From contig VMDK01000116.1 of assembly GCA_008080835.1 (NCBI GenBank), positions 1-49,371 on the forward strand: DNA of 49,371 nt. Reading direction: 5' to 3'. Source of the DNA: Sphingobacteriia bacterium. GTDB taxonomy: Bacteria; Bacteroidota; Bacteroidia; NS11-12g; UBA9320. Each line of letters starts with the position of its first letter. Position 1 is the stretch's first letter. The notes under the pieces were generated by a model, which saw only the letters and a list, made by a program, of their open reading frames with translations, was not told where the DNA came from and searched no databases. Shown here piece after piece: positions 15,082 to 34,404 of the stretch. The translations under genes were made by a program, and so were the position numbers.

Positions 15082-15107
15082 AAGCCCCTACATTTCTGTA
15101 GAGGCTT
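15082..15107 (-). terminator. Hairpin terminator downstream of tRNA-Pro (minus strand)
   Basis: aagcccctaca-tttc-tgtagaggctt with adjacent A-tract (T-tract on the minus strand). Confidence 0.6.
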
Positions 15108-15126
15108 AACTGCTTGATTTACAATG

Positions 15127-15201
15127 TCGGGGTGGCAGGATTCGAACCTGCGACCTCCTGCTCCCAAAGCAGGCGCGATAACCGGGCTACGCTACACCCC
15201 G
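15127..15201 (-). tRNA. tRNA-Pro (anticodon TGG)
   Basis: Reverse complement CGGGGTGTAGCGTAGCCCGGTTATCGCGCCTGCTTTGGGAGCAGGAGGTCGCAGGTTCGAATCCTGCCACCCCGA; acceptor, anticodon and T arms pair. Confidence 0.95.
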
Positions 15202-15252
15202 AGAATTAGTGTGAGTGAAGAGTGTGAGTCTTGAGACTCTTTCTTCACTCTG

Positions 15253-15344
15253 GCCTCTCCCACAATTTGGAGATGACCGGGTGGAGTTTATCCGCCTTTG
15301 GCGGACTACACCCCGTGTGTACAGTGTGAGTGAGGAGTGTGAGT
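15253..15344 (-). pseudogene. Broken copy of tRNA-Pro 5' end plus leader, interrupted by a short palindrome
   Basis: CGGGGTGTAG (15306-15315) joined to TCCGCC-AAA-GGCGGA (15291-15305), then ...CCCGGTCATC...TGTGGGAGA resembling the rest of tRNA-Pro; the upstream leader (ACTCACACTCYTCACTCACACT) is duplicated at 15208-15229 and 15323-15344. Confidence 0.55.
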
Positions 15345-15389
15345 GTAGAGTTCTCATTACTCAATACCCAAACTCAATACTGTCTTTCG

Positions 15390-15463
15390 TGACTCCTTCA
15401 GGACTCGAACCTGAAACCTACTGCTTAGAAGGCAGTTGCTCTATCCAGTTGAGCTAAGGAGCC
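15390..15463 (-). tRNA. tRNA-Arg (anticodon TCT)
   Basis: Reverse complement GGCTCCTTAGCTCAACTGGATAGAGCAACTGCCTTCTAAGCAGTAGGTTTCAGGTTCGAGTCCTGAAGGAGTC + discriminator A. Confidence 0.95.
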
Positions 15464-15695
15464 ATTGTTTTTTAATCCAAGCTCTTCCTACCCCACTTTT
15501 CAAGAACTTTTCCCGCTCTCTGGCCTCTACTCTGGTTGGAAATTCCTCTGTTAAGAATATTTCCCATGGTCGATTGGCCTTGGTGGACCGAGTCTTACCT
15601 GAATTATGTTCCCGCAGTCGCCTCTTCAGATTCGATGTAAATCCAACATAGAACCGATCACGGTCAACACTTTTCATCACGTATACAAAGAACAT
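15441..15695 (-). CDS. GIY-YIG (URI-like) nuclease
   Basis: MFFVYVMKSVDRDRFYVGFTSNLKRRLREHNSGKTRSTKANRPWEIFLTEEFPTRVEAREREKFLKSGVGRAWIKK; the last residues WLLSSTG* are encoded by the tRNA-Arg 5' end. Confidence 0.88.
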   Translation of the reverse strand: MFFVYVMKSVDRDRFYVGFTSNLKRRLREHNSGKTRSTKANRPWEIFLTEEFPTRVEAREREKFLKSGVGRAWIKKQWLLSSTG

Positions 15696-15697
15696 CT

Positions 15698-15795
15698 TTT
15701 TCTGGCTGTTTGCTCCCCGCCTAAGGCGGGCAGGTATCCAGCTTGCTAGCCTCTGGCCAGCTCGTTCGCCTCTGGCGGATTGAGCTAAGGAGCCA
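15698..15795 (-). pseudogene. Interrupted copy of tRNA-Arg 5' region with inserted palindromes
   Basis: TGGCTCCTTAGCTCAA (15795-15780) | 38-nt insert of two degenerate 19-mers | CTGGATA | CCTGCCCGCCTTAGGCGGG | GAGCAAACAGCC, versus intact TGGCTCCTTAGCTCAA-CTGGATA-GAGCAACTGCC. Confidence 0.65.
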
Positions 15796-15839
15796 ATGCC
15801 TTTCCAGCTCTTGGCTTTAGCCGAGCCGGAGTCAATATG

Positions 15840-15927
15840 CGGTGAGGGCGGGATTCGAACCCGCGGTACCCGGTTAAGGTACGGCAGTTTAGCAAACTAC
15901 TGGTTTAAGCCACTCACCCACCTCACC
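15840..15927 (-). tRNA. tRNA-Ser (anticodon GCT)
   Basis: Reverse complement GGTGAGGTGGGTGAGTGGCTTAAACCAGTAGTTTGCTAAACTGCCGTACCTTAACCGGGTACCGCGGGTTCGAATCCCGCCCTCACC; long variable arm. Confidence 0.95.
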
Positions 15928-16137
15928 TGAAGTGAATCTCACAGTGGAGATCCTAGGTATTTCAACTGAACGATGTCCTCATTTTCTCTACCGAATCCGG
16001 GACTTCGCTCAAACGGACGGCAAAAATAAATTTTTTCGAGAAAACGGTGTACAAAAATTGGCTTTTTGTCAAAAATTGGGAAGGGGTCAATTTCATATTG
16101 AATTACTGACCCATTTTCCTAACCTTTGACAACAACA

Positions 16138-18780
16138 ATGGCCAAATCCGACAACAATAAATTCCTGTTCCGCAACCTGAAAATATACAGCAGCACGGAA
16201 TGGTTAGCCGATAACAAGAAGAAGTATCGATCAGTCTACGACCTGAGTGAGCTCGGCTATATTTATTGTGAATTCTCCTTCTTCAATCTCAACTTTCGAA
16301 AGGAAGATTGGCCCCTCAACTTACGTCTCAAGTGCATCGACGAGGATAAGAAAGAAGTATGTGATCTGAACTGCGACCGCGATGTATCCATGAATTCACA
16401 AGTGGTGTACGTCCGTGAAGGATGGGGAACTCGCTCCAGCGGTGGTTTCTGGAAACCTGGTATTTACAAATGGGAAGCCTGGTCGGATGATAAACTGATC
16501 GCTGAACGCAATTTCTACATCCAGGAATTCGGGAAAGTCAGTGGTACTGGTCAGCCGTATTTCGACATCGATACGATCAAATTGTATGAAGGACCGGACG
16601 CAAACGTGCTGCCGGAAAACCGAAAATACTACACGACTTTCCATCATCAGTTCACACGATACGTGTGGTCTGAATTCAATGCTCAAAACCTGATCGGTGA
16701 GGTGAACTACTGGACCTGTGAACTCACCTTCAATTTCCGAACGGAAACCAACCTTCTCAAGGGATCTATTTCAAAGGTGTTCTTAGTATACCCGCAAGAG
16801 AAAGATTTCTCCATTACTGTGGGGTGGGGCGCCGACACCGTTGGAACCTGGGGCAAAGGGAAATACAAGCTCGAGATACTCTTCCTCGACCGCATGATCG
16901 CCACCAAGACATTTGAGATCGGTGAAGATTATGTGAACGCTACGGAATCCGATTTCCTCATTTCGGAGACCGTTCAGGAAGAAGAAGTTCCGGAACCGGA
17001 AGCTGAATCTAAGTCAGGAACGGCAGTTCAAGCCGCCCCTTCCGATGACGTGGAGGATGTCCTTCAGGAATTGGAAGACCTGATCGGATTGTCAGAGGTC
17101 AAAGCTCGAGTCAAAGAATATAGCCACTATCTGCAATTCATTACCCTTCGAAAGGACAAAGGGATCAGTGAGGATGAACCGATCAATCTGCACGCCATTT
17201 TTCGCGGGAATCCCGGTACCGGTAAAACAACCGTTGCCAGAAAGCTCGGAAAGATCTACAAGAAACTCGGACTGCTCACCAAAGGGCATGTCCATGAAGT
17301 GGACCGTGCGGATCTGGTTGCCGAATTCATAGGTCAGACCGCCCCGAAGACCAAAGCCGCTATCCAGAAGGCCAAAGGAGGCATTCTTTTCATTGACGAG
17401 GCTTATTCTCTTGCGAGAAAGGACGACGACGCCAAAGATTTCGGTAAAGAAGCCATTGAGATCCTTCTTAAAGAAATGTCCGACGAATCAGATTTTGCCG
17501 TGATCGCGGCAGGATACCCGGATGAGATGAAGACATTCATCGAATCAAATCCCGGTTTGAAGTCGCGTTTCAATATGGTGTTCGACTTTCCGGATTATAT
17601 GCCTCAAGAGCTGATTGAGATCGCAGCCTATTCAGCAGATAAGAGAGGCATCACTTTCAGTGAAGGTGCTCAGGATCTTTTGTACAAAAAGATCGTGGAA
17701 GCATATCGTAACCGCGACCGGTTCTTTGGCAATGCACGACTGGTCAACTCCCTGGTTGATGAGTGCAAAATGAATCTGGGTTTGCGCGTCATGGACGAGA
17801 CCAATCCGGGTGCACTTACCATGGAAGAACTCTCCACGATCAATGAAGCCGATGTTGCCAAATTAGAGATCAACCCACGTGAGAAATTGCCGGATATCCC
17901 AATAGATGAAGAGCTGTTGCGCGAGTCCGTCGACAAGCTCCATCAAATGATCGGCCTCGACAAAGTGAAAGAGGACATCGAAGATCTGATCAAACTCGTC
18001 CGTTTCTACAAGGAAACGGGTAAAGACATTCGCAAATCTTTCTCATTGCACACCGTTTTCACGGGAAATCCCGGAACGGGAAAAACAACTGTGGCACGTA
18101 TCCTTAGTCAGATCTATAAGGCTTTGGGGATCCTTGAACGAGGGCACCTCATCGAATGCGACCGACAGAGCCTGGTGGGTGGATACATCGGGCAAACGGC
18201 CCTTAAAACGGGCAAGATCATCGACATGGCGATGGGAGGTGTATTGTTTGTAGATGAAGCCTATTCACTTACGGAAGGTGGAGGCTCAGACTACGGGAAA
18301 GAAGCAATTGAGATCATCTTAAAGCGCATGGAAGACCATCGCGGAAAATTTATTGTGATCGCAGCGGGGTATACCGAAAACATGCGTCGCTTCCTGGAGT
18401 CCAATCCTGGACTGAAATCTCGATTCGACCGCACATTCCTGTTTGAGGATTTCACGGAAACCGAATTGCTCGAGATCGCTGCTAATCAGCTTGCGGAGAA
18501 CAATCTCAAACCCGACAAACAAGCCACGGAGCTCTTGTCAGACATGATGACCAAAATGTATACCGGTCGCGACAAGTACTTTGGCAATGGTCGTGCGGTT
18601 CGAAAAGTGATCGAAGAAGCCGTTCGCAACCAACACTTGCGCATGAGCGAGATCGCAAGCGAAAAGAGAACATCCAAACTCATCTCCACTTTGAAAAAAG
18701 AGGATCTTGAGCCGATCGCATTGGCTCAGGATGTGATGGATAAACCTCCGAAATCCATTGGATTCCGGATGGAAAAATAA
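16138..18780 (+). CDS. Tandem AAA+ ATPase (CbbX/SpoVK-like) with duplicated N-terminal beta-rich domain
   Basis: Two Walker A (GNPGTGKTTVARKLGKIYK, GNPGTGKTTVARILSQIYK) and two Walker B (GGILFIDEAYSL, GGVLFVDEAYSL) motifs; N-terminal ~290 aa appears to be two related domains. ATG at 16138 (the ORF track begins at an upstream TTG). Confidence 0.88.
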   Translation: MAKSDNNKFLFRNLKIYSSTEWLADNKKKYRSVYDLSELGYIYCEFSFFNLNFRKEDWPLNLRLKCIDEDKKEVCDLNCDRDVSMNSQVVYVREGWGTRSSGGFWKPGIYKWEAWSDDKLIAERNFYIQEFGKVSGTGQPYFDIDTIKLYEGPDANVLPENRKYYTTFHHQFTRYVWSEFNAQNLIGEVNYWTCELTFNFRTETNLLKGSISKVFLVYPQEKDFSITVGWGADTVGTWGKGKYKLEILFLDRMIATKTFEIGEDYVNATESDFLISETVQEEEVPEPEAESKSGTAVQAAPSDDVEDVLQELEDLIGLSEVKARVKEYSHYLQFITLRKDKGISEDEPINLHAIFRGNPGTGKTTVARKLGKIYKKLGLLTKGHVHEVDRADLVAEFIGQTAPKTKAAIQKAKGGILFIDEAYSLARKDDDAKDFGKEAIEILLKEMSDESDFAVIAAGYPDEMKTFIESNPGLKSRFNMVFDFPDYMPQELIEIAAYSADKRGITFSEGAQDLLYKKIVEAYRNRDRFFGNARLVNSLVDECKMNLGLRVMDETNPGALTMEELSTINEADVAKLEINPREKLPDIPIDEELLRESVDKLHQMIGLDKVKEDIEDLIKLVRFYKETGKDIRKSFSLHTVFTGNPGTGKTTVARILSQIYKALGILERGHLIECDRQSLVGGYIGQTALKTGKIIDMAMGGVLFVDEAYSLTEGGGSDYGKEAIEIILKRMEDHRGKFIVIAAGYTENMRRFLESNPGLKSRFDRTFLFEDFTETELLEIAANQLAENNLKPDKQATELLSDMMTKMYTGRDKYFGNGRAVRKVIEEAVRNQHLRMSEIASEKRTSKLISTLKKEDLEPIALAQDVMDKPPKSIGFRMEK

Positions 18781-33437: not shown

Positions 33438-33956
33438 TTATCCATGACCTTCATACCGATGTGGGTTCGTCAATATATACCGTCGTATGCGATTCAGTTC
33501 TGTTTGGTTCCAGATAACGACATCAAAATAGCGTGGAAGCCAATTGAATTCCGGGATGTATTCTCTGATCTGCCTTGTACATCGCGCTTTGAACCATCTC
33601 ACTACGGCTCCGAGACCATTTACAATCATTGGATTTTTTATACCTGTCACTCCACCGATGTCTTTTGAAGTAAATCGTTCAAGGTCTGAGCGACGCTCAG
33701 TTATAGATATAATTCCGTGAAAATGTTCTGGCATTACTATGAAGATATCTAGAACAACATTTGAAAATTTACTCGGAATCTCAATCCAAGTATCCTCAAC
33801 CACCTTGCCAACCACATTCAAGTAGTGTTTCTTGTCGATAATGCGGCCGAAGTAAGGAATCATATCCTTCACATTTATAGTGACAAAATAGTGGCCACAG
33901 GAAGTGTAATCGTAGCCTTGAAGTCTTGGAGGACCTCCTCTGTTTTGGTAATACAT
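33438..33956 (-). mobile_element. RAYT / IS200-like Y1 transposase
   Basis: YDYTSCGHYFVTINVKDMIPYFG; HUH motif MPEHFHGII; WLPRYFDVVIWNQTELNRIRRYILTNPHRY (candidate catalytic Tyr). Confidence 0.85.
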
Positions 33957-34040: not shown

Positions 34041-34200
34041 TCACGCGATGAATCGCGTGAATACGGTAATGGACTGGGTTATTCTTGAACTGAGGCTAAA
34101 GCTTGGAGGTTCTCTTCTCTACCGTCATAGCATGCGGGACATTGATAGCAAAACGTCCTGCAAGCAACCTAGACTGTATTTGCGCAATCTCTCACGCAAG
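34041..34200. repeat. REP/BIME-like unit 1
   Basis: TCACGCGAT-GA-ATCGCGTGA at 34041-34060; ends with degenerate TTGCGCAATCTCTCACGCAA at 34180-34199; shares AATACGGTAATGG, AAAGCTTGGA, GCAAGCAACy, AGACTGTATTTGCGC with unit 2. Confidence 0.75.
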
Positions 34201-34240: not shown

Positions 34241-34404
34241 TCACGCGATGAATCGCGTGAATACGGTAATGGTATGGGTTGTCCTTAAACTAAAGTTAAA
34301 GCTTGGACAAATCTCTATCCTCCGTAGAACAAGGAACCCTGAGATCGAAACGTTCCATGAACTGCAAGCAACTCAGACTGTATTTGCGCGATTCATCGCG
34401 CAAG
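34241..34404. repeat. REP/BIME-like unit 2
   Basis: TCACGCGAT-GA-ATCGCGTGA at 34241-34260; ends with TTGCGCGAT-TC-ATCGCGCAA near 34384-34403. Confidence 0.75.

Follow-up and report, generated by a model that had tools for sequence, protein, structure and literature searches.

A minimal GIY-YIG nuclease gene joined to tRNA-Arg in a Bacteroidota genome, and its apparent spread beside bacterial tRNA genes

A nuclease gene within a tRNA cluster

The window analyzed here is the whole of a 49,371-nt stretch of DNA (contig VMDK01000116.1, assembly GCA_008080835.1) from a Sphingobacteriia bacterium of the Bacteroidota. Its minus strand carries, in order of reading, tRNA-Ser(GCU) (15839..15927), a broken copy of tRNA-Arg, an 84-aa GIY-YIG nuclease ORF resembling UPF0213 and Slx1 proteins (15441..15695), intact tRNA-Arg(UCU) (15389..15463), a partial tRNA-Pro copy with no nuclease gene (15272..15315), and intact tRNA-Pro(UGG) (15126..15201), the final gene of the cluster. 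The three intact tRNAs were called by both ARAGORN and Rfam; the nuclease was identified from the ORF list, Pfam, and profile and fold matches. The last 23 nt of the nuclease ORF are also nucleotides 1-23 of tRNA-Arg (15441-15463), with the TAG stop at tRNA nt 21-23, and a 16-nt repeat is found at both 15449-15464 and 15780-15795. An earlier note on this DNA had described this overlap, stop codon, repeat and ORF, and all of its coordinates hold. The same note had also placed a fragment of the tRNA-Arg 5' end upstream of the gene; the fragment is present, and is longer than was described, reaching approximately nt 28 across two inserts.

This broken tRNA-Arg copy begins 44 nt after tRNA-Ser. 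Its nt 1-15 (15780..15794, minus strand, as are the segments that follow) form an exact repeat of the intact gene and are followed within the D-loop by a 38-nt palindromic insert (15742..15779), copy nt 16-22 (CTGGATA; 15735..15741), a 19-nt hairpin insert placed right after GGATA between nt 22 and 23 (core CCCGCC-TTA-GGCGGG; 15716..15734), and copy nt 23-28 (GAGCAA; 15710..15715). Since copy nt 1-28 continues around both inserts, the palindromes are interruptions of a tRNA copy. In folding, the 38-nt insert, together with the 19-nt one, extends the D-stem. Similarity to tRNA-Arg fades after nt 28, and the ATG of the nuclease comes next. The partial tRNA-Pro copy consists of nt 1-10, a hairpin (TCCGCC-AAA-GGCGGA; 15291-15305), and then CCCGGTCATC. 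A similar repeat of ~28 nt precedes both intact tRNA-Pro (15208-15235) and its partial copy (15323-15350), an arrangement suggestive of the duplication of a ~114-nt unit. A terminator-like hairpin is predicted 3' of tRNA-Pro (15082..15107, minus strand), the sole one on this strand from tRNA-Ser to that point; the stretch from tRNA-Ser to tRNA-Pro has none predicted. A group I intron was considered and rejected, as no intron family reached the Rfam gathering score in the window.

Other features of the window were also noted. Divergently from the tRNA cluster runs a gene (16126-18780, plus strand) for a protein of 884 aa, in which two AAA+ ATPase-like domains were recognized by eye from the repeated GNPGTGKTTVAR. 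A 172-aa ORF (33438-33956, minus strand) has, by eye alone, the look of a REP-associated tyrosine transposase, and is adjoined by three near-identical 20-nt palindromes of the TCACGCGATGAATCGCGTGA type (34041-34060, 34241-34260, 34384-34403); a literature search on REP palindromes together with GIY-YIG proteins was unproductive.

Comparison with relatives, a check that the earlier note had named, supports an insertion at this site. Eleven relatives without the ORF keep the tRNA-Ser/tRNA-Arg pair, with tRNA-Arg starting 20-47 nt after tRNA-Ser. The 44-nt distance in the window falls within this range; the broken copy therefore occupies the native position of tRNA-Arg, and the intact tRNA-Arg has a 5' end from inserted DNA. 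Among 58 near relatives the nuclease was found in 26, and its presence is patchy among close relatives. A same-genus pair gives filled and empty states of a second site: the empty one (G044) reads tRNA-Asp, terminator, flank, and in the filled one (G041) a nuclease gene, then a hairpinned partial tRNA-Asp and a copy of the terminator, separate the tRNA-Asp terminator from that same flank. The nuclease gene is thus polymorphic for presence and absence at a conserved site, a property of homing endonucleases, and the anatomy of the loci has the native gene end stranded past the insert with an apparently carried copy in its place. One relative (G006), in which no nuclease gene was found, has a tRNA-Arg 100% identical over 76 nt to that of the window; the idea that an altered sequence shields the intact tRNA was therefore rejected for the window locus.

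The nuclease family and its link to tRNA genes

The 84-aa ORF product matches the Pfam GIY-YIG domain with an E-value of 2.4e-17. In an alignment of 29 sequences Y5, G18, H30 and E62 are invariant and Y16 and R26 nearly so, and this domain with its conserved catalytic residues places the protein in the GIY-YIG superfamily. The nearest profile matches are UPF0213 (1.6e-14) and SLX1 (3.6e-9), which are also the top fold matches (E-values 0.0017 and above), and the protein is assigned on these matches to the UPF0213/SLX1 branch. The catalytic domain is predicted with a pLDDT of 96. A separate DNA-binding module is absent, with ~17 residues past the 67-residue domain, part of them encoded by the tRNA. 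NCBIfam gave no name for the nuclease, and its PADLOC matches were marginal.

The nuclease profile matched 266 of 395 sampled Bacteroidota genomes at E <= 0.001, often many times per genome, a count that takes in some relatives with no tRNA link. A search with a closer, three-sequence alignment gave matches in Flavobacteriales, Leeuwenhoekiella, Niabella, Saprospirales and other phyla, several of them adjoining tRNAs. Across the 162 loci examined, a same-strand tRNA lay within 250 nt at 121 and an opposite-strand tRNA at 1, and 26 anticodons were used among the loci examined. Within the phylum, 80 of 88 loci were linked; these are the top-scoring matches of a profile whose own members were tRNA-linked, and the linked share is therefore that of this lineage rather than of GIY-YIG proteins in general. 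In one branch of relatives (16 rows, SH-aLRT 95) no member is linked to a tRNA, and this branch serves as an internal control. Searches for a carrier gave no match in phages and one distant yazA-type match in plasmids, none convincing. The nuclease-tRNA cassette is widespread, and is apparently undescribed in the open-access literature searched.

Copies of the neighboring tRNA accompany these genes. At least 13 nt of the neighboring tRNA is repeated nearby, outside intact tRNAs, at 101 of the 121 linked loci as against 7 of 605 mismatched controls; at 15 nt the counts are 95 and 2. Chance similarity or an assembly artefact would be a conceivable source of such repeats, given that the genome of the window is a fragmented draft of 149 contigs and that many tRNAs have TAG triplets at nt 8-10 and 21-23 by nature. 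These control statistics, with the arrangement at ~100 loci against ~1% in mismatched controls, its recurrence in single-contig genomes (G352, G190, G244, G292), and the tRNA link in the isolate Leeuwenhoekiella polynyae, whose nuclease gene adjoins tRNA-Ala, leave that explanation with next to no probability, and chance was rejected.

The tRNA precedes the nuclease at 83 of the 121 linked loci and follows it, as in the window, at 38. This distribution bears on a proposal of the earlier note, that RNase P cleavage at the tRNA 5' end would remove the nuclease stop codon and set tRNA maturation against nuclease translation. A joint transcript is possible in the window because no terminator is predicted from tRNA-Ser to tRNA-Pro, and RNase P could there create a non-stop nuclease mRNA. 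As a general principle the competition is not supported, since the nuclease lies upstream at only those 38 loci; the idea cannot apply at the other 83, where the nuclease follows the tRNA and in several cases stands behind a terminator. The ORF stop falls inside the tRNA at 21 of the 38 nuclease-upstream loci, hence at 21 of all 121, mostly at TAGs that belong to the tRNA sequence in any case (nt 8-10 or 21-23). The earlier note had also said that relatives with the nuclease gene in the same place, but with neither tRNA overlap nor fragment, would count against its reading; overlap with the ORF is indeed absent where the nuclease follows the tRNA, but a tRNA fragment is present at most of these loci.

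Tandem arrays of two to five units occur at many loci, with a period of mostly 310-380 bp. The shared units often have their edges within the tRNA: at nt 7-22 if the tRNA follows the nuclease and mostly at nt 43-49 or 59-74 if it precedes it. At one locus (L203) 5' copies and one 3' copy enclose the intact tRNA-Arg together with three nuclease genes, and the ranges of the 5' and 3' copies overlap in the anticodon arm. As tRNA genes are well-known targets of integration, and many integrating elements bring a tRNA end with them, the repeats might be read as attachment sites of an ordinary tyrosine-recombinase integration or of a decayed island. This is very improbable: the units, mostly 310-380 bp, hold the nuclease gene alone, no integrase-like gene was seen on inspection of the ORFs at 12-20 kb, copies of the 5' end are frequent, and there was no phage match.

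Hairpins, nuclease-free copies and the nuclease tree

Perfect GC-rich hairpins are 22 times as dense in the tRNA copies (7.2 per kb) as in the remaining flanking DNA of these loci (0.32 per kb). They replace or extend a tRNA arm, such as the D-arm (L206), the anticodon arm (L159), or the T-loop in several arrays of genome G352. Their positions recur: in 9 of 10 aligned tRNA-Arg copies, that of the window included, the hairpin stands directly after the D-loop GGATA/GAATA, and in the copy at L268 it lies a few nucleotides further on. In tRNA-Met copies the hairpins come after CATA and carry paired base changes, with all cells paired, two pairs changed on both sides, and a covariation score equalled in 1 of 500 shuffles; these sites were chosen for holding a hairpin, and the result speaks for compensation rather than frequency. 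Within the 49-kb window the CCGCC-GGCGG hairpin with a 3-nt loop occurs just twice, both times inside a tRNA copy. Genome-wide, the CCGCC-N-GGCGG form has 21 sites against 5 for the reversed control, over-represented near tRNAs; most of the 21 lie away from tRNAs, and exclusivity of the hairpins to tRNA copies was ruled out.

Hairpinned copies also stand without a nuclease. In the genome of the window such copies are found for tRNA-Pro (in the window) and, elsewhere, for Arg(CCU), Arg(UCG), Ser(UGA) and Leu(GAG). At one of these loci (L246, contig G000:C47, ~1640-1913) at least two tandem hairpinned tRNA-Arg copies precede tRNA-Arg(CCU), each with its own upstream region and with hairpins at the same places as in the window copy. 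In genome G352, partial tRNAs for Cys, Thr, Glu, Arg and Met (L361, L364, L365, L379 and L358) form tandem arrays that have no nuclease gene and a period of ~90-145 bp; in the Cys, Thr and Met units the T-loop is split by an insert able to form small hairpins. Four genomes were surveyed for partial copies of at least 13 nt, which were found for 4 of 29 and 10 of 33 tRNA genes in the two with the nuclease and for 0 of 32 and 0 of 31 in the two without it.

A 153-row tree of the nuclease, built on 67 columns with many forks left open and used for clustering alone, tracks tRNA isotype better than host family. Isotype requires 43 changes against a shuffled minimum of 77, layout 14 against 27, and host family 74 against 87. 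One supported fork unites 18 Met-linked rows from approximately eight host families, plus one Val-linked row. The median dN/dS was 0.12 over 15 computable pairs, with synonymous sites saturated in most pairs.

These data bear on two further explanations. In the first, what expands is the tRNA-derived repeat with its hairpin, which would multiply in tandem through hairpin-driven slippage or recombination, with the GIY-YIG gene as a passenger or as a helper on structured DNA. The nuclease-free hairpinned arrays by Arg, Glu, Cys, Thr and Met tRNAs in G352 and the nuclease-free copies in the window's own genome are what such a repeat would leave. We nevertheless consider it unlikely, because the two surveyed genomes without the nuclease have no such copies, and because the nuclease tree is structured by isotype and its catalytic residues are conserved, neither of which a passenger would need. 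In the second, nuclease and tRNA copies would serve the host as decoys or controls, for example by diverting integrases or other tRNA-directed attackers, or by tuning tRNA expression through a shared transcript, as the earlier note had proposed. Purifying selection on the nuclease (estimated with synonymous sites saturated), the 21 of 38 upstream loci with a stop in the tRNA, and the lack of a predicted terminator between the window tRNAs fit a host role. Such a role is somewhat more doubtful still, given the patchy presence in close relatives, the poor fit to host family, the tandem multiplication, and the variable layout, with the nuclease after the tRNA at 83 loci.

A probable homing-type cassette and its closest relatives

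The arrangement is probably that of a tRNA-specific, homing-type selfish cassette of the bacterial chromosome, made up of a minimal GIY-YIG gene and a copy of the end of its target tRNA. In the window, the cassette lies inside the tRNA-Arg locus, where the native 5' end persists upstream as a hairpin-bearing remnant and tRNA-Arg is made whole by the 5' copy overlapping the end of the nuclease gene. Related lineages sit at other tRNAs in this manner, on the 5' or 3' side, and form tandem arrays. The earlier note had proposed insertion of a nuclease element into a tRNA gene, which the element then repaired with a 5' copy of its own. The relatives without the insertion, the G044/G041 pair, the repeats at 101 of 121 loci, the arrays and the poor host-family fit all favor that proposal, in which the transfer step itself is one that we infer. 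The isotype-structured tree, the invariant catalytic residues, the low dN/dS and the confinement of partial tRNA copies to the two nuclease-bearing genomes among the four surveyed speak for the cassette as well. The nuclease would cut a cognate tRNA gene that has no cassette, and recombinational repair from a cassette-bearing copy would then install the nuclease together with the tRNA end, leaving the native end stranded. Insertion would cost the host little because the tRNA stays functional. Arrays may arise by repeated rounds of insertion or by unequal recombination. Hairpins at fixed positions in the non-functional copies may destroy the cut site or the tRNA fold, and the role we prefer for them is to protect such a copy against renewed cutting or to stop it from functioning as a tRNA.

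Four observations stand against this homing mechanism: the intact tRNA-Arg beside the cassette is identical to that of a cassette-free relative, the protein has almost nothing beyond its catalytic domain while known homing endonucleases possess a part that binds DNA, hairpinned copies often occur with no nuclease, and the searches gave neither a phage carrier nor a convincing plasmid one. Because this usual module is absent, and because cutting is itself a conjecture, we do not claim membership of the free-standing homing endonucleases. More tentatively, the cassettes may represent a new class of chromosomal mobile element in several phyla, in which an Slx1-like, structure-sensing nuclease targets those arms of a tRNA gene that can form hairpins, the tRNA is rebuilt from the element's own copy, and remnants with a hairpin replacing or extending the D-, anticodon- or T-arm are immune, with isotype-specialized lineages and nuclease-free arrays as its outcome. 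Any selfish nuclease directed at tRNA genes, which are essential and strongly conserved, has to leave them intact or restore them, and this has apparently been solved for the 26 anticodons in the loci examined, in many Bacteroidota and some other phyla. The nuclease cassette is a testable case of how a tRNA-targeting nuclease avoids killing its host. If true, this interpretation would explain the many small GIY-YIG genes beside tRNAs and the tandem tRNA-fragment repeats, and would link bacterial chromosomes to the SegB-tRNA amplification of phages.

The tandem tyrT repeats of E. coli (RtT RNA) follow a tRNA gene, and each contains the tRNA 3' end; they occupy a single locus with no nuclease gene, and presumably resemble the nuclease-free arrays of G352. 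The nearest solved relatives of the nuclease by sequence and fold, UPF0213 and SLX1, share its catalytic core. To our knowledge, this branch is not known as mobile or tRNA-linked. SLX1 acts on branched or structured DNA (PMC6902002), and a 2006 survey of the GIY-YIG superfamily makes no mention of such a link (PMC1564403). Mobile ORFs of fungal mitochondria bring a gene end with them, as in Allomyces atp6 and in Glomus atp6, atp9, cox2 and nad3 (PMC3630166). As with the cassette, an endonuclease ORF (GIY-YIG in Glomus atp9) inserts and replaces the cut-off end, and the native end remains beyond it; these ORFs differ in residing in mitochondrial protein genes and in being mostly LAGLIDADG, with no tRNA targets or hairpins described. 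SegB of phages T4/T6 is a free-standing GIY-YIG homing endonuclease of the tRNA region that cuts inside tRNA genes, and drives tandem tRNA-segB amplification by way of a short homologous stretch that the tRNA 5' region shares with the gene 3' end (PMC13096335). It has in common with the cassette a GIY-YIG gene adjoining tRNA genes and tandem tRNA-nuclease units, whereas it belongs to a phage genome and is a larger protein, its cutting is established where that of the cassette is presumed, and no restored tRNA or hairpinned remnants have been described for it. SegB is a direct precedent for the mechanism proposed for the cassette.
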